This document shows, one piece after another, positions 16,680 to 61,880 of a DNA stretch of 64,000 nt. Under the pieces are notes generated by a model. That model had not been told where the DNA came from. It saw only the letters and a list, made by a program, of their open reading frames with translations, and did not search any database. The stretch is from Diphasiastrum complanatum. Taxonomy: Eukaryota > Streptophyta > Lycopodiopsida > Lycopodiales > Lycopodiaceae. Position 1 is the first letter of the stretch; each line of letters begins with the position of its first letter. The stretch spans positions 42,621,723 through 42,685,722 of the forward strand of contig CM055095.1 of NCBI GenBank assembly GCA_029204225.1. The letters are read 5' to 3'. Position numbers and translations under genes: made by a program.

Positions 16680-19600
16680 CTGTGCTACCAAAATATGATG
16701 AAAAGATACCATGTACATGCACACAATGCAAAGACCTTAGGATTCGAACAAGGTGGATTGCCAACGATCATATTTGGGCCAATGGAGTGCACTCAGAGGA
16801 TCCAATAGTATGAGAGGTAAAATCTTCAAATCATAAAATATGAAATTTACATGAGATTTTCTTTTTATGCTCGATGTGTTTTAATGTGTATTTCAAACAA
16901 TGTATGTGTACATGCTCATTAGATTTTTTGTAATGTGATGATGTGCTCCATTAAAGAGTTAATACATCATAGTGCTTAATTGAAATCACATTTTTTTAAA
17001 AGTTTTATGAGATTGAGATATTAGCTAGTCCTTACTCTTGTGGTTTACATTAGTGGTTTATAGTTTGTGAGGCATATAATGTTTTGTAGGTGTGTAATAC
17101 ACCTTGTTTGAAAAGAAACAGATACATCTAACATTTTCAACTTTTGCAAAAGAAGGAACATAAGCTGGTTTCAAGGAAAAGAGTTGCAAGAGATATTGAG
17201 AATATTGTTGACAAGAAAGATCACATGAATATTGATTTTGGATCATCATTGGCCTTGGATGATGTTGTTGTTGATGATGATCCCTTGCATGATAGTTCAT
17301 CATTTTGTGATTCAATCCATGTCCCCAAATTTCCAGAGCATTCTTACCACCCAACCACTTCTCTCTTATTCCTTACATTGATGCATGACTCATTTCAAGA
17401 ACATGCCCTCTTAATCAAGTTTTGCAAGATCTCCTATATCTGGCTTAGGCTTATTAAAAGAGAATCAAAATACAAATGTCTTGAAATCCTCTATATTCAT
17501 GAATCGGTAGATTGTCAACTTCTGATATGATCCGATACAGGGAGGAAAAGTTAAAGCATGTAGATTTATGGTCATAAAAAACATTGTATCCTATTGATCC
17601 ATATCACTCATTGCTACATCCAGATTTTCATTCGGTGAGTTAATTAATAATCTATACGTGTCATGGCAAACATGGCCTTTTGGGTTACTGTGAGAATTTG
17701 ATGCTCTATGGGAATGCACATTCAATGCAAAAAATACATTATTTGGAAGAGGAATCAAGGAAAATATCAAAGGAGTGCAAAGAAAAATCTACAAAGTTGA
17801 AAACTTGTTGGGAAGAAAACGAGATGTTCAAGAAAGAGATCTATAGGTTGAAATCTTCTTTGCATCATTTTACAACTACTAATGATGAGATCAAAATTGC
17901 ATTTCAATCCATGCGTATCTCATATTTGTCTCTTGTTAGAGATATGGATGTGCTCAATAAAAAGGTCAGAAGCAACAAGAGGAAAAGACTGGTAACCAAG
18001 GATATATGTGATCTATCATCCAGAGGAGGTTATAGAAAAAGACGAATCTGTGCATTTAAGTAAGTTATAGCTTATTTGGTAAGGAACTTTTTGATTCAAT
18101 CATAATCACTAGTTATGTTATTTATTAATTTCAACTTTCTATTGATTTTTTTATTATGCTGCTGTGAATACTATGAGTGTCCTAATTTCTACTGATATTT
18201 TCATGAAGATTATGTTTGCAATGCAGATTAGCATTGGTTGCTGAATACCATTTGGCCGATGAGATTTCTATCGGAAACTCACTGGGTTCTATCTTGACTT
18301 CTAAATCTATGAAATCAACGTTAAACAATAACAAAATAAAAAAGATTAAGGCTTCAGTTACTGATAGCATTATGAATGTTGGCAAAATATTAGACACTAC
18401 ATTGGTTCAGGGGGCATGTGATTTTTTTAGCATCAGTAGAGAAGCATATGCAACAATGTTTAAGATGATACAGGATGCATTTGCACAGGTAAGTATTAAA
18501 AAGTTTCCAATCCCACGACCATTTCATCTTTTAAAAAAAAGACATCTTAAACCAAGGTATGCATACAATAGTTGGTAATCCATCTCATATCAATGAAGTG
18601 TTTTCCGCGAAAGGAGAATGTTTAGCATATAACAATTCCAACAATCTATTTATTGATATTAATCAGCTACTAATATTCATCATAAATTTGTATGATATTA
18701 AAAATGAGAATGTTAATAACAAGTTGATAGCTGTTCTCAAGTTAGATGAGTCTGAAATTATAAAAGGACAAAAAATGGAGAGAGTCAGTCTTACAATCAT
18801 GAATGGAACACTTCCAAATTCAGAAGACTCATAAGGCCTCAACTTCAATGTTCAATCATAAAATGATATATGGTAGTTGGCAGCATTTCAGGTATAGTAG
18901 TTCTTTCGCATAATTAATAGGGTTAATCATTTTAATATGGATTTCATTTGGGAAATCTTCTCTGTGCTGATATTATGTGGCTAAATCATGTTTTTGTTTT
19001 CTATGATAGGTGATGAAAGAAGACCATGACATTCTCTCATGGATATTAAATAGAACGTCATATCTTGCAACCATAAAAAATCACATGGAGTGAGTTCCAC
19101 TCAATATTCCTAGAATTGGCACTTTCAAGATATAATGGCATTTAGCAGGAGATCTAAAGACATTAAAATGTATGTTCAATGTATCCCATGGTGCTAACTC
19201 TAAACATCCTTGTTTGTATTGCATGAAGACAACAAAAGACATGACAAGGAGTGTAGAAATATCAAGCGATCGAGAAGATCCTAATTGGAAACCCATACTA
19301 CCGATTCCTCTTCAAATATTCATATGTGTACATTGCATGCAGAGGTGCGTATAATAGAAAAAATAATATACCTTCACATCTTGTTTGCATGGAATTCCGA
19401 GCCAAAGGCAGCTGTGAAGAGAGCTATTTCCAGATTAGAGGATGTGTTGTCTAAAGTAGGCTTACATAAAGGCCACGTTAAAATAAAAAAAGACGACAAG
19501 CTATTAGGTATAACAAGAAATATTCCATGCTAGTCGAGCATTGGAGGATCCAAAGCTCGTAGATTTTTATCAAATTATTTTGGCAAACAATCCAAGATTC

Positions 19601-20220
19601 AATACTCAGTTTGGAAAGAGATAATAGCTGCAACTCAAGATTTCAAAGAAGAAGGTCCTACTCGTGTACACAAAGTAACGGTTTGGAGAAAATTAGACAA
19701 CATGGTGGAATACTTGAGAAAAGATAAATTTTCAAATACTGATGTACAAATAATGTAGAAAACACCTAGTGAATTTGTGAATGTAGTTTGAAGTGCAAGG
19801 GGTTTAGATCATATAACTCATTATATGGTAAGATTTTGATGCTGCACTAGTGTAGATAGTGCAATTAATTTAGATACTTTTGGTAATAATTTGTATTTTG
19901 TTTTTATGACATGCAGCACATGTTACGACATCATTCGACATTCTTTGCAAGAAATTGTGAAAGTCTTAGCATATAGTCATCGCAAGGAATGGAAAAATTT
20001 CATTGGCAAGCAAGAGCGGCATTTCATAAAAGTACAGAACATGGTGGGACTGGCATAAAGAACAGTTATTATTGCAACTTTTCAAATGGTTTCATAGAAG
20101 AATCCAAATTCGTCATAATACAAAATCGACGGATTATAAAAAAAATTCAAAAAGCATGCAAATTTATACAAGCCAATAGGCAATAGACACATAGAGAGAT
20201 TTTGTATATTAAATGAAAAT
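16680..20220 (+). pseudogene. Transposase-like gene, copy 1 (two-gene element)
   Basis: Pieces in order: a Cys-rich start (CTCTQCKDLRIRTRW with a following H, 16,700-16,790); an acidic segment (17,144-17,530); a coiled coil (17,680-18,059); an intron ending at 18,226 with matching phase; a helical exon (18,227-18,600) with a one-base slip in an A run; LKLDESE...ERVSLTIM (18,740-18,800); intron 18,892-19,009; KEDHDILSW; GDLKTLKCMF with PCLYC (19,150-19,225); TLHAEVRIIEK; intron 19,828-19,916; and SSQGMEKFHWQAR with HGG (19,975-20,045). An acidic residue, a CxxC insertion, a His-bearing motif and a late QGxE resemble RNase H-fold DDE transposases of the RAG1/Transib kind in order, but I cannot assign a family. 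Several stops; relative at 56,674-58,202. Confidence 0.55.
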
Positions 20221-20225
20221 TTTAC

Positions 20226-21815
20226 AAAGTTCGGTTATCCAATATCTGCTCTGCTTTGATACTTTCTCTAATAAAAGTTGCAATTTAGAATCATACAACA
20301 GTTTCCTTCTCTCATAAGAATCCAAAAGCTCTTAGTTTTCATGCTTACTCAGATCAACATAGACTGCATACAATGCAAAATGAGATTATCTGAGCATGGA
20401 ATTCACTGGACCATATCCTAAAATCTTAAGTGCAACATTTTTCTTAACAAAAATTATTCTATGCACCCTATTAAAATTATGTCCTCCAAGAAAATGAGAA
20501 AGTGCCTTGATTGCCATAATCATTGTATCACCATCTTGATGAAACTTTGAATGAACACTTATCTCATTATTCTTGAAGAACTTCGGATAATCCCTAGTGC
20601 ATGATCTCTTGAAAATTCTCCAGCAAAGGATTTTTGCCCACCATCAAGCAAAATCATCAAGAAAAATTGTTTCCTGAAATGAAAAAATGCAAAGTAAAAT
20701 CCAGTATAAAATCTAGCATTACGGATCTATTAGTACAAGATAAGATACAAAACTTATGCATTCAGCTTTGTCTTCCTCGATTACTGCCTCTCCATCAATA
20801 TTATGTCCACCTTTTGATGTCAATATGGTGAATAAACAATTGGTTTTTTAAAACCTAGTTGACTTTGAAATCTGAAGAACTCCTCGTCAGAAGGAAGATC
20901 ATTTTCTTTTTGGCACATTTCCTCCACATCCATTTTCAAACAATTTTTTCCTGAATAAAACTTATCCTTATTTACATCGTCAACACTAGGGAGAAGATCA
21001 TCAGCATCATAATCAATTATATCTGAAAATTCATGAAGCTCTTTGCCCATAATGCAAAGAGTGTTGGCCTCTGTGACACCAAAAAGATTGGATATATCCG
21101 ATAGTGTCAAAAAAAATTTATTATCTATATTATAAGTAGGTAATGTGATAAGAAATTGATTAGAAGAAAAAAGAGTATTAGTAATTCTAGGGCCTATAAA
21201 CGATACCCTATTTTGTTCACGATAAAAAACTGTACAATCATCTAAACTAATGCTCATATCAATAAATAGAAAAATTAATATCTACAGTCTTCGACTTTTC
21301 AGATTTTGTACCATTGGAAAAAACAGCTTCAGAAGTAAAAAGGCTAGCCTCCAAATCATCAGAAATATTTAACAAAAAAAAAAAAATAATGTAGATTGAA
21401 ACTCTACAAATCTACATTTTTTATTGGAAATTGGACAATCATCTATAGACCTGAAATCATTATGTAACTTGGTGAACATTCTATCAAGCTTAGCTTTATA
21501 GCTATGTTTGTCGAGTGGCATCAGATCCTGATAATGAATCATGTTCTTATTATGAGATCTGAACAAGGGAGTACTGAGTAGAGACTTGAATCTAAGATAA
21601 ATCTCTGAAAAAGCTTCCACACCAGGACCCTCAGAAATAGAAGGAACAGCAAAACTAAAAGAAGAAAAAAGAGATTTGAAATACTCCATATTATCACTAA
21701 TACCAAATTCATGAAAAAAAGATAGCAAACTAGAATCGAAATTAGACATTTCAACAAAAAAAATACGGAAAGAAAGATTTTGAATATTGGACTCAGGCGC
21801 AAAATGCAAGTTCAA
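20226..21815 (-). pseudogene. Convergent second gene of the two-gene element, copy 1
   Basis: Reverse-strand open blocks at 21,369-21,815 and 20,820-21,257 and a decayed block down to 20,226. The middle block has LITLPTYNIDNKFFLTLSD and an acidic YDADDLLP stretch. The 20,226-20,580 part aligns with the intact frame at 58,210-58,488. Its end meets the end of the transposase-like gene (convergent). Function unknown: no membrane segment, zinc knuckle or enzyme motif is evident. Presence in both copies, in the same relation to the first gene, suggests it is a real component. Confidence 0.45.
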
Positions 21816-22182
21816 ACAAAACTACAACACCCTATACGCTCGAAAGAGATATCAAAAAATCGAGTATCAGATCCGAGTGCGCTCGAGGTCGGCGTGAGGT
21901 GAGGTGAGGTGAGTCACGGCAACACAGTCCCGACGCAAGCTTGAGGTCGACAAGAAGTGAGTTGAGTGTCATGCTCCAAATCGGCGTGAGGCGAGGGTCT
22001 TGAAAAAAAAATATATTTAAGGACCGTAGTCCAAGCATAACTCACCTCATCTACGAATTCAGAAGCATACATATTGCCAAAGCTCTCGCTATGATAAAGT
22101 CACGGATTTCTATAGTATATTGCATACGTTCTCGCTCACACATTTCTTGACGGTAAGATTATTGTCATTTTCTAACTTTGTT

Positions 22183-22680
22183 CTATGCTTAGCATGGGTA
22201 CTAAATTGTTGCATTACTAAATATCCAGGTTTTAGCTAGTGTTCATCTTCTTAAAACTTGGGTGACATATGCTCAGCATAGGTGGCTACACGAGTCCTCT
22301 CCTCTAACCTATGCTGAGCATAGGTTGTGTTCGGGTCCTAAGTAACAACCTATGCTCAACATAGGAAGCTGGCGGGATATTTCTATTCTTACCACGTTTC
22401 AACATATGTCGAGCATAGGTTGTATCTCTAGTCCTCTTCTAACCTATGCACAGCATAGGTCGTCACTCGCATGCTTGAGTCCCACCTATGCTCAACATAG
22501 GATGTCTTCGCATGCTGGTTGCTAACCTATGCTTAGCATAGGTTAGAAGAGAACTAGAGATGCAAACTATGCTCAGCATGGGTCGATAGGTGATAAGAAT
22601 AGACACATCACGCTGACATCTTATTATGAGCATAGGTTGTTACTCAGGACCTCAACACAACACATGCTCAACATAGGTCG
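22183..22680. repeat. Array of CTATGCTNAGCATAG palindromes (left)
   Basis: About eleven copies of a 15-bp perfect-to-imperfect palindrome, usually extended to ACCTATGCTNAGCATAGGT, spaced irregularly at 30-60 bases. It ends about 280 bases before the first exon of the methyltransferase-like gene. The same palindrome occurs inside that gene's introns (23,995 and 24,085) and in a mirror-image array at 27,925-28,265. It looks like a bank of dimeric protein-binding sites or subterminal repeats. Confidence 0.9.
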
Positions 22681-25809: not shown

Positions 25810-26110
25810 GCACATACATTAATGGTACATTGATTTTCTCATTTCAACCATCAAACATATTCATTTTCAATATTTTTGGGTCTCTTCGGGCAGTGATGAG
25901 CTGGAAGGGCAGGCCTCAACTACCAATAGCATTTTCACATGCTATTCGACGAAATAGTAAAATATTTAAAAAAAAATTATTTTATTTATATTTGGAGAAT
26001 TCTACGTTACATAGAACCTTGATATCAAAGTTTCAATTGGTCCACATGGCTACGAAAATAAAATAAATAAATAAAAAAACATCTGTTTCAAGGGCCCTCG
26101 TCGAGCTCTA
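25810..26110 (+). repeat. Dispersed ~290-bp repeat, copy 1
   Basis: Matches the reverse complement of 35,625-35,905, including GTGATGAGCTGGAAGGGCAG and the GGTCCACATGGC block. Non-coding. Probably a short mobile element; ends not defined. Confidence 0.75.
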
Positions 26111-26499
26111 AGAATTTCTAATGATCCACCTTCAACCCTAGACCCTAGCACATGCAAAGCGTCAATAGATGAAAAGGATTCTAACATGTCGCACAGAGAT
26201 TCGTTTCCATGAGAGAGATATCATAGTTTAGATTCAAGCACATGCTTATGATTCAATATCTAACACTACAATCATATTAACCCTAATCCACCACAAGTTC
26301 AAGCTTACTTTTCTCTCATAAAAAATATAATAATATTCAATGCCAACAATTAGCAAAACCAATTAACATAAAAATCCAAAGAAAACATGAGAGATCAAGC
26401 AAGAAAGAAGAGCAAGGCCATCCAAATCCAATTTGATAGAAGTTCCACCTTCTCCATTAGAAATGAACATGAAAAATGAACAACAAAGTACCACTATCT

Positions 26500-34790: not shown

Positions 34791-35620
34791 TATCCTCCTA
34801 ATGCTGCATAATCACTTATGGTACAAAATGACTCAAAGAAAACTGATAAAAGCGCAACAAAACCTCATTGAATAAATGATGACCTACCATTTTTGCAGCA
34901 TACATAACTGTCGCTCCTGATGCATTGGCACTGCTTGAGTTAATAACTCGTACCAGACAGTTTTTTATATTTTCTGGCTTCACTCTCATAGAAAACACTA
35001 CTTGTTGAATAATCTATACCCAACTTCTTGTCATTTTCAGCAGTAATGAGCCCTGAAGGTTTTTAGATGTTTCAATATAATAATAAAGCATTTCAAACAC
35101 TATCGCGTCACTATTGCAAAACATTCTAATGGGTGTTGTTGCCTCAATTGGATAGCTTGGCATCCTGAGCTTTTCATCTACTAGCTTATAGAGACTGAGC
35201 CTTTAAATGGACCTTTACATTAAACACATAAAAGTGAAATGTCGCAGCACTCTTTCAGATGATTCTATGATTGAAGGTAGCAATTAGAATGTGAATGCCC
35301 TTTCATTAGCAAGAACCTTAATATCTTGTTTTTTACAACTGAAGCTAGCATCAGTTTGGTAGTCCGAAGGCTTAGTCTGATTGCCTTGTTTTTATCTTGA
35401 TAATGCAACAAGAGAATCAGAAAGTCTTTAATACATTTCAGATTCCTAAAATCTCCAAGAAGAAACTAGCACTTGTAGAAATATAATTGGAAGAAGACAA
35501 CAGAATCAACAAAGAAGTGAAACATATATATAGCTCACCAGAACTTGCAAAACCAATGCATTCAATTGAAAGACAATCATAAAACGAACAAACTTATGAA
35601 ATATACATCAGAGAAACTTA
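34790..35620. other. Stretch without recognisable gene
   Basis: A 60-residue reverse frame (34,816-34,998) and one SINE-like head (35,137-35,165). Nothing else. Confidence 0.45.
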
Positions 35621-35624
35621 GAGC

Positions 35625-35905
35625 CCGACGAGGGCCTTTGAAAAAGATGCTTTTTTTTTTTTTGTTGCCATGTGGACCAATTGAAACCTTGAAATCGGGG
35701 TTCTACATAACGTAGAGTTTCCCAAATATAAATAGAATGAAAACTTTCTAGATATACCACTGTTTCGTCTAGCAACATGTGGAAATGCTATTGGTTGTTG
35801 AGGCCTGCCCTTCTAGCTCATCACTACTTGAAGAGACCCAAAAATATTGAAGATGAATATGGAAAATGGCTGAAATGAGAAAATCGATGTACCATTAATG
35901 TAATA
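35625..35905 (-). repeat. Dispersed ~290-bp repeat, copy 2
   Basis: Inverted relative to 25,810-26,110 and clearly similar over its length, with different A/T runs. Confidence 0.75.
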
Positions 35906-37290: not shown

Positions 37291-37648
37291 TGTTACGAGC
37301 TCGTAACCAGTGCTGAACCCTAGAGAACACAGATAGGTCAGATACCACAGTCAGGGTCATGTCCAGCGTACATGACCAACAGGGCAAGACAGTGTGAGTA
37401 GTGTGCCCCAGCACGGTCCATAGCCATGGCGGGCCTAACACAGCCTAGGGACCCTATAAGCAGGATAGGGCCCCCAGTTGGGTCCCGACGTGCAGTCGGC
37501 CACGTCAGTGCCACGTGGCTGACACGTGGCAGTAGCATGCTACCAGTCCTCACACTGGGCTAGGAGGGGCTTACTCTATATCAGGGAGTAGGCAAGGTTG
37601 GGTGGATGAGTTAGTGTTTGCCCTACTGTGGTGTTAGGATCTATTACA
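37291..37648 (+). repeat. Chromovirus 5' LTR
   Basis: TGTTACGAGC...TCTATTACA, 358 bp, differing from the 3' LTR by about 14 bases. It is preceded by GTACT (37,286-37,290) and followed one base later by the primer site TGGTATCAGAGCC (37,650-37,662). Confidence 0.95.
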
Positions 37649-38304: not shown

Positions 38305-39786
38305 CAACGAGCTACTTCAAGTCGTCGACCCCAATCAGCCATTTGTGGTCGAAACAGATGCTAGCGACTTTGCAGTAGGTGCTGTGCTAACTCAGAGTGG
38401 ACGACCAGTTGCGTTTGAGAGTAAAAACTCGAGCCAGCTCAGACTAGGTACAGTGCCTATGAAAAGGAACTCTTTTCTATAGTCCATGCCCTTAAGACTT
38501 GGAGGCATTATTTGTATGGTGCCAACTTTGAGGTCCTGACAGACCATGAGAGTCTCAGATACCTTTGCAATCAACCTGAGCTTAGAAGTCGGAAAGCTCG
38601 TTGGGTAGAGTTGATGCAAGAGTTTGACATGTCTATCAGATATAGGCGTGGAAAATTCAATACAGTAGCAGATGCCCTTAGCAGAATGCCTATGATAAAC
38701 GAGCTGAGTTTTACTCAGATTCGTAATGAGTTACTCGAGTCCTTGAGAGGGAAATGCCAGCATGATGCATTCTTCTCTATTATCTGGAACTCAGTCCAGA
38801 ACAGACAGTTACAGACTCCAGAACCAGTTTCCGGGGCTGGTGCCAGTTCATCCAAGAATACGACAGCTTCCGTTGAGGATGATGATGAGTCCGAGTATAC
38901 GTCGTCAGATGACGTTGAGGATTCTGAGCCTGTATTACCCAAGCAAACCCTAGGGGTTGAGGGTCAGTTGACTCAAGGATTCAAATGGAAACAGTATTCC
39001 ATTCAGGATGAGTACTTGCTCTATAGACATAGAGTATGTGTCCCCAATTCAGAGGATTATAGGCAGCAGGTCCTATATGAATGTCATGACAATCCTAGCG
39101 CGGGACACCCAGGCATACAGAAGACCTATGAGCTTCTTCGTAGGCAATTTTTCTGGCCCAGTATGAAAAAGGACGTCCACCAGTATGTAACCAGTTGCCA
39201 AAAATGTCAAGTAAATAAAGCAGATCATTTAAAGGCAGGAGGGTTGTTGCATCCCTTAGAAATACCAGCTGGTAAATGGGAGAGTATCTCCATGGATTTT
39301 ATAGTAGGCCTGCCTAAAACCCAAAAGGGTAATGATGCTATATGGGTCACAGTTGACCGTCTGACCAAAATGGCTCATTTTATTCCGACCAAAACAACCA
39401 TTAGAGCTCCAGAGTTAGCAAGGTTGTTTGTAGACGGGCTATTTAAATTGTACGGTCTACCTTCCGGCATAGTCAGCGACCGAGACAGTAAGTTTACTGG
39501 AAATTTTTGGAGGGCAGTATTCCATCATCTCCATACTAAACTTAATATGAGTACCACCGACCATCCACAGACGGACGGTCAAACAGAAAGGGTAAATCAA
39601 GTGCTGGAGGATATGCTTTGTGCATACGTCAGCAAGAAGCAGACTAATTGGGAGGAGTATCTCTCGATATTAGAGTTTGCTTACAACAGTACCAAACACT
39701 CAGCTACGAGATACAGCCCATTTATGCTGATGTACGGTTTTCAGCCACGCTCACCCACAGTTGTAGGGTTTAAACAAGAAAGTTGA
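38305..39786 (+). pseudogene. Chromovirus RNase H and integrase
   Basis: RNase H begins VVETDASDFAVGAVL (38,347 on) and has a frameshift near 38,440. It continues EVLTDHESLRYL and IRYRRGKFNTVADALSR, the canonical gypsy RNase H end. The integrase follows with an H-H-C-C zinc site (GHPGIQKTYELLRR, CQKCQ) and the DDE core: SMDFIVGLP, VSDRDSKFTGNFW and TDGQTERVN carry D, D and E. The frame then stops at 39,786, before the C-terminal part. It depends on other elements for the missing polymerase. Confidence 0.92.
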
Positions 39787-39935
39787 AGCAGCCAGAAACT
39801 TTTTAGAAGACCTAAACCAGATGATAGAACATGCTAAGCGTAGCATTAGACAATCCCAGGATCGAGCCAGGCATTATGCAAATTCACATAGACGGGATGT
39901 GCAGTTGACTCCACTGGTGATGTGCAGTTCTCTAC

Positions 39936-40355
39936 TTGAGAGTCCCAGTTGACTCTAAAACCCTCAAATCAGGAGTGTGTGCTAAGTTGTCTCCAAGGTA
40001 TTGTGGTCCCTTTACCATCAGTAGGAGACTAGGCGAGGTCACCTATGAACTAGAACTCCCACACAGCAGTAAGGTTTTTCCAGTCTTTCATGTAAGTCAG
40101 TTACGAAAAGCCTTAACCAGATCAGATAATCTGGTAGGGGACAGTGTTGTAGTTCTCCCATTGGATCCTCAACAACTTCCACATGAACCAGAGGAGATTC
40201 TTGATAGTAGAGAGACGCAGACTCGTCATACTCTATACCGAGAATATCTGGTTAAGTGGAATGATCAGCCTGTTGAGAATGCCACTTGGGAAAGAGGCAG
40301 CGTCCTTCGCAAGATTTTTCCAAACTTTGTCTTAGAGGACCAAGACGGTTCTTAA
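39936..40355 (+). pseudogene. Integrase C-terminus with chromodomain
   Basis: Starts in the GPF-type integrase tail (KLSPRYCGPFTI, FPVFHVSQLRK) and ends in a chromodomain: PEEILDSRE, then YLVKWNDQPVENATWE. Chromodomains of this type direct integration to modified histone H3. It is separated from the integrase core by frameshifts between 39,786 and 39,936. The stop at 40,355 sits next to the polypurine tract. Confidence 0.92.
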
Positions 40356-40366
40356 GGGGGAGGGAG

Positions 40367-40724
40367 TGTTACGAGCTCGTAACCAGTGCCGAACCCAGGA
40401 GAACACAGATAGGTCAGATACCACAGTCAGGGTCGTGTCTAGCGTACATGACCAACAGGGCAAGACAGTGTGAGTAGTGTGCCCCAGCACGGTCCATAGC
40501 CATGGCGAGCCTATCACAGCCTAGGGACCCTGTCAGCAGGATAGGGCCCCCAGTTGGGTCCCGATGTGCAGTCGGCCCCGTCAGTGCCACGTGGCCGACA
40601 TGTGGCAGTAGCATGCTACCAGTCCTCACACTGGGCTAGGAGGGGCTTACTCTATATCAGGGAGTAGGCAAGGTTGGATGGATGAGTTAGTGTTTGCCCT
40701 ACTGTGGTGTTAGGATCTATTACA
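40367..40724 (+). repeat. Chromovirus 3' LTR
   Basis: 358 bp, preceded by the purine tract AAGGGGGAGGGAG and followed by the target duplication GTACT. Confidence 0.95.
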
Positions 40725-56670: not shown

Positions 56671-56673
56671 AAA

Positions 56674-58202
56674 TGTCTAGCATATAACAATTCTAACAAT
56701 TTATTTATTGATATTAATCAGCTACTAACATCCATCATAAATTTTTGTGGTATTACAATCGAGAATGTCAATAACAAGTTGATAGTTGTTCTCAAGTTAG
56801 ATGAGTTTAAAATTATAAAAGGACAGAAAATGGAGAGAGTCAGTCTTACGATCATGAATGGAGCACTTTCAAATTCAGAAGACTCAGAAGGCCTCAACTT
56901 CAATTTTCAATCAGAAAATGATATCTGGTGGTTGGCAGCATTTCAGGTATAGCAGTTCCTTCGCGTAATCAATAGGAATAATCATGTTAATATGGGTTCC
57001 ATTTGGCAAATCTTCTATGTGTTAATATTATGAGGCTAAATCACATTTTTTTTTTCTCTTATAGGTGATGAAAGAAGACCATGACATTCTCTCATGGATA
57101 TTTAATAGAACGTCATATTCTGCCACCATAAAAAAACACATGGAGGGAGTTCCACTCAATATTCCTGGAATTGGCACTTTCAACACAGAATGACATTTAG
57201 CAGGAGATCTGAAGACATTAAAATGTATGTTCAATATATCCCATGGCACTAACTCTAGATACCCTTGTTTGTACTGCATGAAGACAACAAAAGACATGAC
57301 AAGGAGTACAAGAATATCAAGAAATCGAGAAGATCCTAATTGGAAACCTGTACTACCAGTTTCTCTTGAGAATGTTCATAATTGTACATTGCATGCAGAG
57401 GTGCGTATAATAGAAACAAAGTATATCTTTACATCTTGTTTGCATGGAATTTCGAACCAGAGGCATCTGTGAAGGAAGCTATTTTCAGATTAGAGGATGT
57501 GTTGTCTAAAGCATGCTTACACAGAGGCTATGTTAAAATAAAAAAAGATGACAACCTATCAGGTAAAACTTTCCATGCAAGCCGAGCATTGGAGGATCCA
57601 ATGCTCGAAGATTTTTATCAAATTATTCTGGAAAACAATCCAAGATTCAATACTCATTTTGGAAAGAGATTATAGCTGCAACTCAAGATTTCGAAGAAGA
57701 AGGTTCTACCCGTATACACAAAGTAGAAGTTTGGAAAAAATTAGAGAACATGGTGAAATGCTTGAGAAAATATAAATTTTCAATTACTGATGTACAAATG
57801 ATACATAAAACAACTAGTGAATTTGTGGATGTAGTTCAAAGTGCATGGGGTGTAGATCATATATCACATTATATGGTAAGATTTCGATGTTACACTACTA
57901 TTGACAACTTTGCAAGAATTAGCGGAAGTCCTAGCATATGGTCATCGCAAGGAATGGAAAAATGTCATTGGCAAGCAAGAGAGACATTTCATAAAAATAC
58001 ACAACATGGAGGGACTAGCATAAAGAACGCTATATACTGCAACTTTTCCAATGGTTTTACAAAAGAATCCAAATTCGTCATACAAAATCGACGGATTATA
58101 AAACATTTCAAAATGCATGCAAATTTATACAAGCCAATAGGCAATAGACACAAAATGAGATTTTGTATATTAAATGAAATTTTTTACAAAAAGTACAATT
58201 GA
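56674..58202 (+). pseudogene. Transposase-like gene, copy 2 (5'-truncated)
   Basis: Collinear with 18,619-20,220. Order: LKLDEFK, QKMERVSLTIM; intron 56,947-57,064 at the same site as copy 1; KEDHDILSW; GDLKTLKCMF; PCLYCMKTTKD (57,270-57,300); HNCTLHAEVRIIE; a one-base deletion near 57,418; KPSIGG; then a long open frame 57,750-58,202 with WSSQGMEKCHWQAR and NTQHGG. The third intron of copy 1 is fused out: a deletion removed part of the intron and the next exon, leaving the frame open. It starts abruptly at the LESEIKC-equivalent region, with nothing of the N-terminal half. Confidence 0.55.
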
Positions 58203-58209
58203 CCAAAAT

Positions 58210-59232
58210 CTACTCTACTTCCGATACTTTCTCTAATGAAAGTTGCAACTTTGAATCATGCAACAATTTTCTTCTTTCGTATGGATCCAAGAGCTCATAG
58301 TTTTCAGGTTTACTCAGATCAACGTATGCAGCATACAATGCAAAATGAGATGATCCGAACATGGAATTCACTGGTCCATATCCTAAAATTTTAAGTGCAA
58401 TAGTTTTCTTTACAAAAATTATTCTATGCACCTTATTAAAATTATGTCCTCCAAGAAAATGAGACAGTGTCTTGATTGCCACAATCATTGTCTCACCATG
58501 TTGTTGAAACTTTGAATGGGCAACACTTATCTCATTATTCTTTAAGAACTTCGAATTATTCCCAAGTGCATGATCTCTTGAAAATTCTCCAGCAGAAGAT
58601 CTCTACCCTCCTTGACAAATTGCAAAATTATCAAGGAAAATTGTTTTCTAAAATAAAAGACATTTAGGGTAAGCTTCAGTGTATAATCTGACATAACGAA
58701 TCTACTTGTACATAATAAGATACAAAACTTATGCATTCGGCTTTGTCTTCCTTGATTACTGTCTCTCCATCAAAATTATGTCTACCTTTTGATGTCAATA
58801 TAGTTGGTAAATAGACAATTGGTTTTGGAAAACCAAGCTAACTTTGAATTTTAAGAAACTCCTCTTCAGAAGCTAGCAATCTTCTTTATTGCGCATTTCC
58901 TCCACAACCATTTTCAAGCAATCTTTTCTTGAATAAAACTCATCATTATATACATCATCAGCACCAGGGAGAAGATCATCAGCATCATAAGCGATTATAT
59001 CTGAAAATTCATGAAGCTCTTTGCTCCAAATACAAAGAGTCACGACCTTTGTGAAATAAAAAAGATCCAATATATCTGATAGTGTCAAAAAAGTAATATT
59101 ATCTATATTATAAGCAGGCAATGTGATAAGAGATTTATGAGAAAGAGAAAGGATGTTGGTACTTATAGGGCCAATCGTATCAATAAAAAAAGTTTCTATA
59201 TTTATAGTCTTCAACTTTTCAGATTTTGTACC
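58210..59232 (-). pseudogene. Convergent second gene, copy 2
   Basis: Reverse blocks 59,232-58,873 (LITLPAYNIDNITFLTLSD, ELHEFSDIIAYDADDLLPG) and 58,488-58,210 (IKTLSHFLGGHNFNKVHRII, LYAAYVDLSKPENYELLDPY). The last block ends 8 bases from the stop of the transposase-like gene, so the two are tail to tail. The block at 58,488-58,210 is intact here and broken in copy 1. Unknown function. Similarity to copy 1 ends at about 59,232. Confidence 0.5.
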
Positions 59233-59256
59233 ACTAGAAGAATGATTATGAGAATG

Positions 59257-59835
59257 ATGGCTAGGACGAGATCCACTGCCCATGCCATTACCTTTGTACA
59301 GCCATCCCATGCCCATATTCCCTTTGGTACTGGACGTAGACGTGGCAAAAAGCAGGTCTGGTTGAAAGAGAAAAGAAGACTCCAAAGATCAATTGAATTG
59401 TTGATCCCTAGAGCTCCTTTCAGCCGATCTGTTAGGATTGTCACCCTGTCACTTGGGCTTGATGTTCGTTTTGCTGTGACAGCCATACAGGCCTTACAGG
59501 GTGCTGCAGAAGACTTTATGTCCCAGTTTTTTGAGGATTCATGTCTTTTGGCCATGCATGGTAAGCACGTTACCATCATGCCTAAAGATTTTGTTATTCT
59601 CAAACGACTTTGGGAACGTTATTCAAATCTTCATGTGGATAACACCAGCACCTCTAGAGACCTGCCTCTGGATAGAACTGACTTGCCAACTACCTCAAGG
59701 AGGAAAAAGAAGCAGGCTGTCCCAAAGAAAGCTGGATCTCGAAGGCCAGCTACTTCTCTTCTTCCTAGAGTTATCCCTGGCAAGAGACCCCGCATTTTTA
59801 TGAGCTCTGAATCAGATGCTGGAGAATTTGATTGA
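59257..59835 (+). CDS. Histone H3-fold protein with C-terminal extension
   Basis: 192 residues from the ATG at 59,257. Residues 36-119 follow the H3 fold with no gaps: QRSIELLIPRAPFSRSVR (alpha-N/alpha-1), DVRF, ALQGAAEDF (alpha-2), FEDSCLLAMHGK and VTIMPKDF (loop 2/alpha-3). LLIPRAPF, AAEDF and KDF are shared with plant centromeric H3 (CENH3), but loop 1 has canonical H3 length. The tail is only about 45 residues, starts MARTRST and lacks recognisable K9/K27 contexts. Residues 120-192 are an extension with a basic cluster (SRRKKKQAVPKKAGSRR), likely nuclear targeting. It begins 25 bases after the boundary of the repeated element. The same frame is open from 59,137, so the start is uncertain. 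A diverged captured or element-encoded H3 is the likeliest reading. Confidence 0.75.
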   Translation: MARTRSTAHAITFVQPSHAHIPFGTGRRRGKKQVWLKEKRRLQRSIELLIPRAPFSRSVRIVTLSLGLDVRFAVTAIQALQGAAEDFMSQFFEDSCLLAMHGKHVTIMPKDFVILKRLWERYSNLHVDNTSTSRDLPLDRTDLPTTSRRKKKQAVPKKAGSRRPATSLLPRVIPGKRPRIFMSSESDAGEFD

Positions 59836-59875
59836 GACCCAGAATCATCCTTTTCTCCTCTTGTTATTCATGTAG

Positions 59876-60337
59876 TTCTTCAGAAGGCTTCTTCATGAAG
59901 CCCAAGAGGAGCTTAATAAAATAACTGAAAAATCTATAAATATTGTGTCTACATCCCTTTCTCTCCCTGTACATAATCTTTTTGTTAGAATTCCATACGA
60001 TCCTAATCAGGTTTATTTTGATTTTGACCATTATAACCAATACGAGGCCTACTTAGCTAATAAAATTGATCAGCTCGACAATTATTTTGATTTCTTTCTT
60101 CTAGATTCAAATAGAAGCTATAGATTAGGTCCCAAATTTTGTGATGTTATTGTAGAAGCTAGCAAAAACTTTTTGCAACATAGTATTAGTTCTGATTCTC
60201 CGAGTGTAGTTTTTGTTGTCAGCCCATTTTTTATGGGAGCAGTGAAGGCAAAAGACGTCAATTTTGAAAGGGCTGCATATTTCATCGAATGTAGTCCTGT
60301 GGCGAAATTTTATTTGATTCCATATGAGAATAAATAA
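59876..60337 (+). CDS. C-terminal continuation or partner of the H3-like ORF
   Basis: An open frame, +1 relative to the H3-like frame, from 59,876 (first Met codon after 59,940) to 60,337. It contains EAQEELNKITEKS, FDFDHYNQYEAYLANKIDQL (helical, acidic) and VVFVVSPFFMGAVKAKD. Between the frames, the H3 frame continues after its stop as DPESSFSPLVIHVVLQ until 59,898. One stop and one frameshift would separate the two, so it may once have been one ~350-residue protein. No domain recognised. Confidence 0.4.
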   Translation, partial: FFRRLLHEAQEELNKITEKSINIVSTSLSLPVHNLFVRIPYDPNQVYFDFDHYNQYEAYLANKIDQLDNYFDFFLLDSNRSYRLGPKFCDVIVEASKNFLQHSISSDSPSVVFVVSPFFMGAVKAKDVNFERAAYFIECSPVAKFYLIPYENK

Positions 60338-60419
60338 GGATTGCTAGTTTGTTTTTGTTGCTTTAATTTGGATGATTACTCCTGTTCAAATGGATTACTA
60401 TTCATAAAGAATCGAGTAT

Positions 60420-61210
60420 TTATAGTTACTTACAAGTTTACCATTGAAAATGAATCTGAAGTCTAAAAGTATATCATCTTGTAGGAGCAATAGTTCCCGC
60501 CTGATGTAATTTAGACTCCAATCTTCTTCGACCTCAACACATGTCAAAACTGTATCATTGTATATGATTTCAAAATTTTTTCATTCTAAATGTCCATTGG
60601 CTTCCAAGTCTTGATCGAGTGGCACCCATTTACCTTTATTTTTTTTCCATTTTTGATAATGGAAGCATATGCTCAACATTTGTTTTTGAATTTGATAACA
60701 AAAGCACATGGAAGACATTTTAATTTTGTATTCTATTTCTCCATCTAATCTTTTGTCCCAGCCTTCATCCATAAGGTCAAATAATAAACTATTTGATAAA
60801 TTTTTGCATACAAACATCGTTGGGGTTTTGTGTACATTGACACGAAAAAAGAAATCCACAAATATATTCAGAGAAATAAACCAACTCAATCTAACTGTTT
60901 TTTATTCTGTGCTTATCTTTAATGAATTTTTTACATCATTATATAGCTTGTAATGAAATGATTTTGAAACTGCAGCATCTGGAGCAACCCATCCATCACT
61001 CCAAAACTAGGTAAGGGAATTGCAAATATTTGTCCAAAACCTCCATTTGTATTAGGAATGTACATCGATTCATAAAAAAAAATCCCACTATCAGCTAGAT
61101 GTTTTGCAGTTCTACCTCTATATTGCAGCTGTCCAATATCAGTGTGAATAACATCTAACACACATGCTCGAGATCCACTAGGCTCCCATTCATTTATGTT
61201 GGATGGATAT
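60420..61210 (-). pseudogene. Unidentified reverse-strand ORFs
   Basis: Block 61,210-60,931 reads VLDVIHTDIGQLQYRGRTAK, then IFFYESMYIPN. After a possible splice at CTTACCTAG it can also continue as SDGWVAPDAAVSKSFHYKLY. Block 60,889-60,581 has TPTMFVCKNLSNSLLFDLMD and a Lys/Trp-rich end. They converge on the H3-like gene. No family recognised; probably two exons of one gene, possibly part of the same element. Confidence 0.35.
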
Positions 61211-61239
61211 AATTCTGCAAGAGAAAAATGATCAGATTG

Positions 61240-61880
61240 GCAAGTTTACTAGTAGATATTAGTGAATGACAAAAATCAAAATATCCTTTACTATATTCGA
61301 CAAGAATCCTTGAATCGAATAAAGAATACTTCTATTTAATAACAATACCCTTCCATCAGTTCTACAAAATTCAACTTTAACAAGAATTTTACTCAAAGCC
61401 TATAGTTGCCATTCTTTAATGATCAAAATCATTGAGAATGAACTGGCAACCTCATTGATTGAAAGTCAAAACATTATGGATCCAAAATCCGTAAACACAA
61501 TTTATCTCCTTTCATTGGGAGTATTCTTACTCCAGAGTTAAGATTGTTAACTCTCTCTCTCTCTCTCGTTTTCTCTCACCTTGTGATGCATCACAGGATT
61601 ATATACCTCATCTCTCTCTCTAAAACTTATCTTTGTACAAGCCTTTAAAAGCACATTCTCTCTAAAATCAAGGTGTGAGATTTTTAAGCCCACTACTTTT
61701 CAAGTACCCTTCAAATGCATTTTAGGGCTAACAAGAAGTTCCAAAACGCATTTTCTCTAGCATAGCAAAACATTCTTCTCTCTTTCACTCAGTCACTCTC
61801 TCTCTCGGTCTATCTCTCACACACACCTGAGTTATGTTTTAGCGCTTGTCATCGTTTTCTACATAAGGAAGCTACTGATG
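61240..61880. other. Stretch with CT-rich runs, no gene
   Basis: CT runs at 61,551-61,568, 61,605-61,622 and 61,795-61,820, which could be 5' leader or promoter sequence for the small gene at 61,886. Confidence 0.5.

Follow-up and report, generated by a model that had tools for sequence, protein, structure and literature searches.

The window, by which we mean the whole 64,000-nucleotide stretch analysed here (positions 42621723-42685722 of contig C4 in the 1.74-Gb assembly of Diphasiastrum complanatum), contains a broken copy of a repeated element that carries a histone H3-like gene. The following features were identified in it:

17511..21840, no strand assigned: second copy of the element, truncated before the H3 gene (right edge approximate)
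56672..61285, no strand assigned: truncated H3-bearing copy of the element, with homology from -2585 to +2028 relative to H3; other copies extend further on both sides
56672..58199, plus strand: remnant of the plus-strand gene (AGDLKTLKC..PCLYC..VHICTLH family), a possible transposase; frame broken
58213..58602, minus strand: remnant of minus gene A, with a dN/dS of 0.32 between the two window copies
58876..59242, minus strand: remnant of minus gene B, cut by a deletion that abuts the H3 start
59257..59835, plus strand: H3-fold open reading frame (ORF) of 192 aa, from ATG at 59257 to TGA at 59833-59835; tail at residues 1-33, fold at about 34-118 and basic extension at about 119-192, ending at the TGA
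59836..60337, plus strand: remains of the linker and C-terminal domain of the H3-fusion protein, placed by alignment to the open frame of copy L020

Several further repeats were seen in the window. Two inverted fragments (25815-26123 and 35606-35902, 80% alike) end in versions of the right terminus of the element (26122 on the plus strand and 35607 on the minus strand), so that two or more additional pieces of this family are present in the window. A direct, LTR-like repeat (37291-37648 and 40367-40724, 96% alike) flanks a gypsy-type pol at 38425-40355 (by eye); we take the retroelements of this DNA to be plant-like. Copies of a palindrome like CCTATGCTSAGCATAGG, some direct and some inverted, are densely packed in 22265-22678. 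Rfam gave no match at gathering scores.

The original prediction had claimed an ungapped match of the 192-aa ORF to the H3 fold, and this was borne out by profile and sequence searches. The ORF matches the Pfam family Histone (PF00125) with an E-value of 6.4e-22 (78.5 bits, where the cut-off is 26.4), and the protein of copy L020 matches the same family with 2.9e-23. When the ORF was searched against the PDB with phmmer, 177 distinct sequences were found at E ≤ 0.01; the alignment with the best of them, an H3 (9.1e-19), spans 86 residues and needs no gap, so that loop 1 has the length found in H3, as had also been predicted. Ten references of H3/CENH3 type (eight standard sequences, one from the PDB and the sequence P0001) are 41-47% identical to the ORF over 86-88 columns. 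With canonical H3 the identity reaches 47%, compared with 97-98.5% for the host's own H3s, which argues for a long evolution as an open frame. Columns that are invariant in the H3 family are kept in 17 of 26 cases and variable columns in 24 of 60, with a p-value of only 0.037. The GC content is 46% in the ORF and 37% in the window, and the chance of an open frame of 250 codons at the local base composition is about 3e-8 per frame tried. The expected short tail without K9 or K27 contexts (about 33 residues) and the expected basic extension (about 73 residues, rich in K and R) are both present, and the window copy begins with MARTRSTAH. The AlphaFold models fell short of the quality needed for fold searching, with a pLDDT of 54 for the window H3 and 39 for another model.

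Searching the genome with the 192-aa protein yielded at least 150 scored matches, all with E ≤ 1e-86. The scored matches were drawn from 7465 first-look candidates, a figure that is not a copy number; the copy number is at least about 150 minus duplicates. Most of the 150 matches are full-length including the extension, with identities of 73-89% (the query itself excepted), and they are spread over every contig from C1 to C23 as well as small contigs. Internal stops are absent from 48 of the 150 rows, as counted by eye with duplicates included. A total of 20 copies were fetched with their flanks, all chosen because they were listed without a stop in the H3 part, and further fetches provided three upstream stretches, then one more, and one later copy. 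Flanking sequences around the H3 gene, over differing lengths, are common to all 20 loci. The idea that this H3 is borne by an element is therefore well founded, and the extension recurs together with the fold in the scored places.

The copy at 56672-61285 has lost two pieces in comparison with longer copies, one of about 1.35 kb that directly preceded the H3 start and another of about 1.3 kb near 60397. The copy at 17511-21840 has blocks that are 84-88% identical to 56672-59175; its left part matches L029 and L030, and window positions 21369-21821 on the minus strand match a third minus-strand gene, gene C (by inspection). Because this second copy stops before H3 and the other is deleted there, H3 had seemed to lie beyond the repeat, a reading that was dropped since other copies show H3 to be internal.

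The two ends of the element, CATTAGAGAAA and TTTCTCTAATG, match each other in inverted orientation along 11 bases, and each contains a palindrome. Both are present in L013 (about 8.4 kb) and L022 (about 8.9 kb), and single ends were found in other copies. The right end, ...GGCCCTCGTCGGGCTCTAAGTTTCTCTAATG, occurs with small differences in 13 rows (some of them duplicates, two in the window), 12 of which have the final G; the left end, CATTAGAGAAAATATGGGCCC..., occurs in five loci, with C before ATTAG in all five. L013 is inserted in a reverse transcriptase gene of copia type (identified by eye), an uninterrupted relative of which lies in L019, and the joined flanks align with it over 798 columns at 84%. 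No target duplication was found at the L013 insertion when compared with this empty site, and none was seen by eye at the flanks of L022; two sites are a small basis for a general rule. Judged from these sequences, this is very probably a high-copy DNA element with inverted ends that resembles TIR transposons.

A Helitron was first suggested by the right end (a hairpin and CTAA-T) and was dropped since the left end is its inverted copy. Helitrons are marked by a 5' TC, a 3' CTRR with a hairpin, an A|T target, the absence of a target duplication and a Rep/helicase protein. The hairpin near CTAA and the lack of a duplication fit this description, whereas the inverted ends and the 5' end disagree with it. 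The element frames tested gave no rolling-circle protein, and no Pfam match to the hAT transposase domain was obtained for the subset of frames tested. On contig C11, a right end of the element was also observed near canonical H3 genes, no more than about 1.5 kb away from them (L033 and L034, near 3007).

Downstream of the H3 ORF, the frame at 59876-60337 had been suspected to be fused to it, and in intact copies both indeed lie in the same frame, so that no splice is needed to join them. In L020, a single frame of 372 codons leads from MARTKSTAR through the H3 fold, the extension and a linker to ...LIPYENK. This fused frame of about 370 aa is open in three of the 24 copies counted (L009, L020 and L049; L011, a near-duplicate of L009 that is also open, was left out of the count). 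The fusion consists of an H3-like tail, the H3 fold, a stretch that is first basic and then rich in serine, and a C-terminal domain (about 137 aa). Compared with L020, the window stretch 59836-60337 is out of frame and has an 11-bp deletion, a second stop and a 33-bp deletion; the first two of these, together with the TGA at codon 193, part the window H3 frame from 59876-60337. The C-terminal domain of L020 has no Pfam match and a best PDB match of only E 0.91, and no relative of the window frame 59876-60337 was found in Pfam or among six protein-database candidates. The first protein search took lengths of 0.55-1.75 times 192 aa, a range that fusions of about 370 aa elsewhere would escape. 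In addition, L020 gave a Pfam match to CENP-T_C at the cut-off (29.1 against 28.1 bits), which makes a different histone-fold complex possible.

The element also carries a gene on the plus strand and the genes A, B and C on the minus strand. For the longer exon frame of the plus-strand gene (L022:901-1680, plus strand), 32 homologues were found (P0003-P0034), the named one being a protein of Ceratopteris richardii. This wide family has the motifs AGDLKTLKC, PCLYC and VHICTLHALCRIIEK, and its D, CxxC and H residues are invariant. Going by this arrangement, the gene is possibly a transposase, and the family may represent an undescribed transposase superfamily; no convincing Pfam or PDB match was found for it. 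Splice-like borders were seen by eye in both window copies (56950-57060 and 18895-19010), and their retention in both suggests an intron in this gene. Gene A recurs in 16 and gene B in 17 of the searched sequences, and genes A-C have no convincing Pfam match. The dN/dS of gene B between the two window copies is 1.05. Pooled dN/dS values of the plus-strand and minus-strand genes (0.42-0.64) are in the range of antisense controls or a little below and above it and do not demonstrate selection.

Selection on the H3 fusion was analysed on a tree of 23 copies, comprising 18 of the 20 fetched copies, four others with stops and the window copy. Since the pooled pairwise dN/dS of the H3 part (0.40) did not separate from antisense controls (0.45 and 0.57) and was thus indecisive, a branch-wise, mutation-corrected omega with controls was used. 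Mutation rates were taken from presumed noncoding element sequence in 17 of the 23 rows (six were left out), and these noncoding blocks are both rate source and control, so that the two are not fully separate. For H3 codons 1-118, internal branches gave an omega of 0.34 and terminal branches one of 0.75; the internal changes comprise 51 synonymous and 45 nonsynonymous ones, distributed 32/18/46 over the codon positions. The corresponding internal and terminal values were 0.55 and 0.78 for the extension, and 0.60 and 0.85 for the C-terminal domain. L014 and L021 stand on very long branches (nearest identity 0.82) and may belong to an older subfamily or be partially misaligned. Without L013, L014 and L021, internal and terminal omega were 0.39 and 0.70 for H3, 0.55 and 0.75 for the extension, and 0.44 and 0.90 for the C-terminal domain. 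The contrast between internal and terminal branches in synonymous and nonsynonymous changes had p-values of 0.001 for H3, 0.03 for the C-terminal domain and 0.24 (not significant) for the extension.

Controls on internal branches ranged from 0.49 to 1.31 for shifted and antisense frames, the lowest value coming from one antisense frame, and from 0.78 to 1.35 for presumed noncoding blocks. On terminal branches, other frames of the H3 stretch gave 0.57-0.88, and the H3 value of 0.75 is therefore compatible with neutrality. No stop falls on internal branches in codons 1-193 and four fall in the linker and C-terminal domain; stop-free copies had been chosen, which favours intact ones and bears on this absence. 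Across copies, the H3 frame appears to be under purifying selection on internal branches and not clearly so on terminal ones. Such a pattern would be that of a gene used while the element spreads and free to decay after insertion. Very probably, then, the window H3 is one decayed copy of a gene residing in a high-copy DNA element with inverted ends, whose intact form encodes a fusion of about 370 aa and was selected while the element spread.

Across the 23 copies, the tail keeps K4 and T3 in 22 copies each, R2 in 19 and R8 in 14. Q5 has become S in all of them, position 9 is A in 21 and K in one, and there is no K27 context; the exact sequence MARTKSTAR, the commonest form, is found in eight. 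The original prediction was thus right about the shortness of the tail and its missing K9 and K27; the tail is nevertheless not featureless. Within the fold, H113, K115, K122 and F84 are kept in all 23 copies, D123 and T118 in 22, R69 in 21, R116 in 19, R72 in 18 and R83 in 16, and E94, K79 and R63 are changed in every copy. Among these, H113, R116, D123, K115, K122, R69 and R72 are presumably positions typical of nucleosomal H3. The DNA contacts and the H3-H3 bundle seem to be mostly kept, although not all of them are; with E94, K79 and R63 changed throughout, R8 kept in 14 and R83 in 16 of 23 copies, a normal nucleosome is not assured.

The fold, the fusion, the copy number, the ends and the selection can be read from the DNA; H4 pairing, incorporation and anti-silencing are inferred as follows. 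The fusion would pair with host H4 and enter nucleosomes or a nucleosome-like complex. Since K9 has given way to A and K27 is missing, silencing methylation of H3K9/K27 would be impossible on it, and the K4 end of the tail would be kept, as R2, T3 and K4 are retained in most copies. Such an H3 substitute might protect or mark the chromatin of the element, which would then stay open, or the C-terminal domain might draw a partner to this chromatin. A replacement or blocking of nucleosomes at the element or at centromeres, as raised in the original prediction, is likewise conjectural. We put this mechanism forward tentatively, as the chances lean against it. The best explanation overall, a selected element-borne H3 fusion with an anti-silencing mode of action, comes close to an even chance and falls somewhat short of it. 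A bolder version appears doubtful, namely that a plant transposon superfamily without a known transposase builds chromatin that cannot be silenced by means of its own H3 fusion, which keeps K4 and lacks K9/K27, or settles at chosen nucleosomes, and has been selected for this over many rounds of spreading. The anti-silencing idea is directly testable because the K4 end is retained while K9 and K27 are missing.

The same residues bear on another explanation, in which the histone fold would act outside nucleosomes, inside a DNA-protein complex of the element, as a dimer partner or DNA binder for transposition. The fusion to a new domain, the K/R-rich extension and the loss of E94, K79 and R63 in all 23 copies would suit such a role, but the nucleosomal H3 positions are mostly kept and so is the H3-like start of the tail, and we consider this explanation unlikely.

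A further explanation is CENH3-like targeting, in which the H3 part would enter or read centromeric nucleosomes and bring the element transposase there. CENH3 chromatin has reportedly been found to guide a retrotransposon in Arabidopsis. The mixed H3/CENH3 signatures that had been noted earlier are real: LLIP..F, AAED and the L at position 110 are CENH3-like, loop 1 is of H3 length, and the tree favours neither origin. In it, a long stem leads to a single group (support 100/99) that unites the element H3s, and 10 of the 13 inner branches of the H3/CENH3 tree are open. Neither a union with canonical H3 (AU p = 0.25) nor one with plant CENH3 (p = 0.315) was rejected, with P0002 inside each. P0002, a fragment from a public 537-bp contig, has the block RFAVTAIQALQ in common with the window H3, and its union with the element H3s is weakly supported (54/78). 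The host has canonical H3 genes as well as H3.3-like genes with introns, and no CENH3 was identified in its genome. The element H3s are similar to plant CENH3s in the MARTK start, LLIP..F and AAED; unlike them, they have no insertion in loop 1 (compared with reference CENH3s and P0001) and possess the extra extension, the C-terminal domain and many mobile copies. The CENP-T_C match in L020 would agree with targeting to centromeres, but loop 1, the lack of preference in the tree and the presence of copies on all of C1-C23, among the matches listed, do not favour it, and this reading is quite unlikely.

The selected element-borne fusion also has to be set against a simple passenger, that is, a host H3 that the element would have picked up a single time and multiplied without any function, as fungal hAT elements did. 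H3 capture by TIR elements is on record (in the available text of PMC3538342 and PMC6710886) and the terminal branches are compatible with neutrality, but the internal omega of 0.34, the absence of internal-branch stops in codons 1-193 and an identity to canonical H3 of 47%, against 97-98.5% for the host H3s, which points to long open-frame evolution, make a passenger improbable. That genes and histone came from a large DNA virus, as an endogenous viral element, is still harder to maintain: several element genes have no known relatives and viruses do carry histones (according to the available text of PMC9145170), but viral contigs contained no close relative of the H3, P0001, P0002, the downstream frame or minus gene A, no H3 relative was found among phages, the plus-strand family has a fern member, and a transposon would account for both the short inverted ends and the copy number. 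Finally, the null of the original prediction, a decayed host H3/CENH3 pseudogene beside transposons, to be recognised by the lack of an H3 match or by a single neutral copy, has next to no probability: the window copy is broken, but there is an H3 fold, at least 150 scored places with common flanks and ends, and selection.

Transposons carrying H3 are known from fungi, where they resemble captured host genes. In the present case, a plant element turned H3 into a part of its own fused protein, seemingly under selection. Searches of open-access papers turned up no description of a plant transposon with an H3 fusion, and the term "histone" is absent, by term count, from the available text of a 2026 review on gene capture by plant transposable elements (PMC13317346). 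The element thus provides a naturally occurring case in which to ask whether mobile DNA that brings its own nucleosome part is able to counteract silencing or to select its sites.

Three known systems can be compared with it. Bracovirus H4 and nudivirus Orf1 are viral histones, sometimes fused to other parts, as described in the available text of PMC9145170. They have in common with the present case a histone fold that is encoded by non-host or mobile DNA and is at times fused; unlike them, the element protein has a single N-terminal H3 fold, belongs to a transposon-like plant repeat and gave no close viral relatives in the searches. In the fungus Pyrenophora tritici-repentis, a hAT element has an H3L gene beside other ORFs, with ESTs reported, and the reference contains 26 very similar H3L genes, as far as the available text of PMC3538342 goes. 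The present element is likewise a DNA element with inverted ends and an H3-like gene next to ORFs, but it resides in a plant and has neither a hAT nor another convincing Pfam domain in the frames tested; in contrast to the very similar H3L genes, its H3 is fused to a new C-terminal domain, its copies have diverged and selection was tested. In Pseudocercospora fijiensis and relatives, a hAT-captured H3 is dispersed in hundreds of copies, with 471 elements carrying it and a full length of about 9.5-9.9 kb; the target duplications there measure 8 bp, and RIP has inactivated copies (available text of PMC6710886). Many dispersed H3-bearing TIR elements are found in both cases, whereas the plant element is distinguished by two copies in which no target duplication was seen, by a fused frame open in three of 24 copies and by purifying selection on the internal branches.
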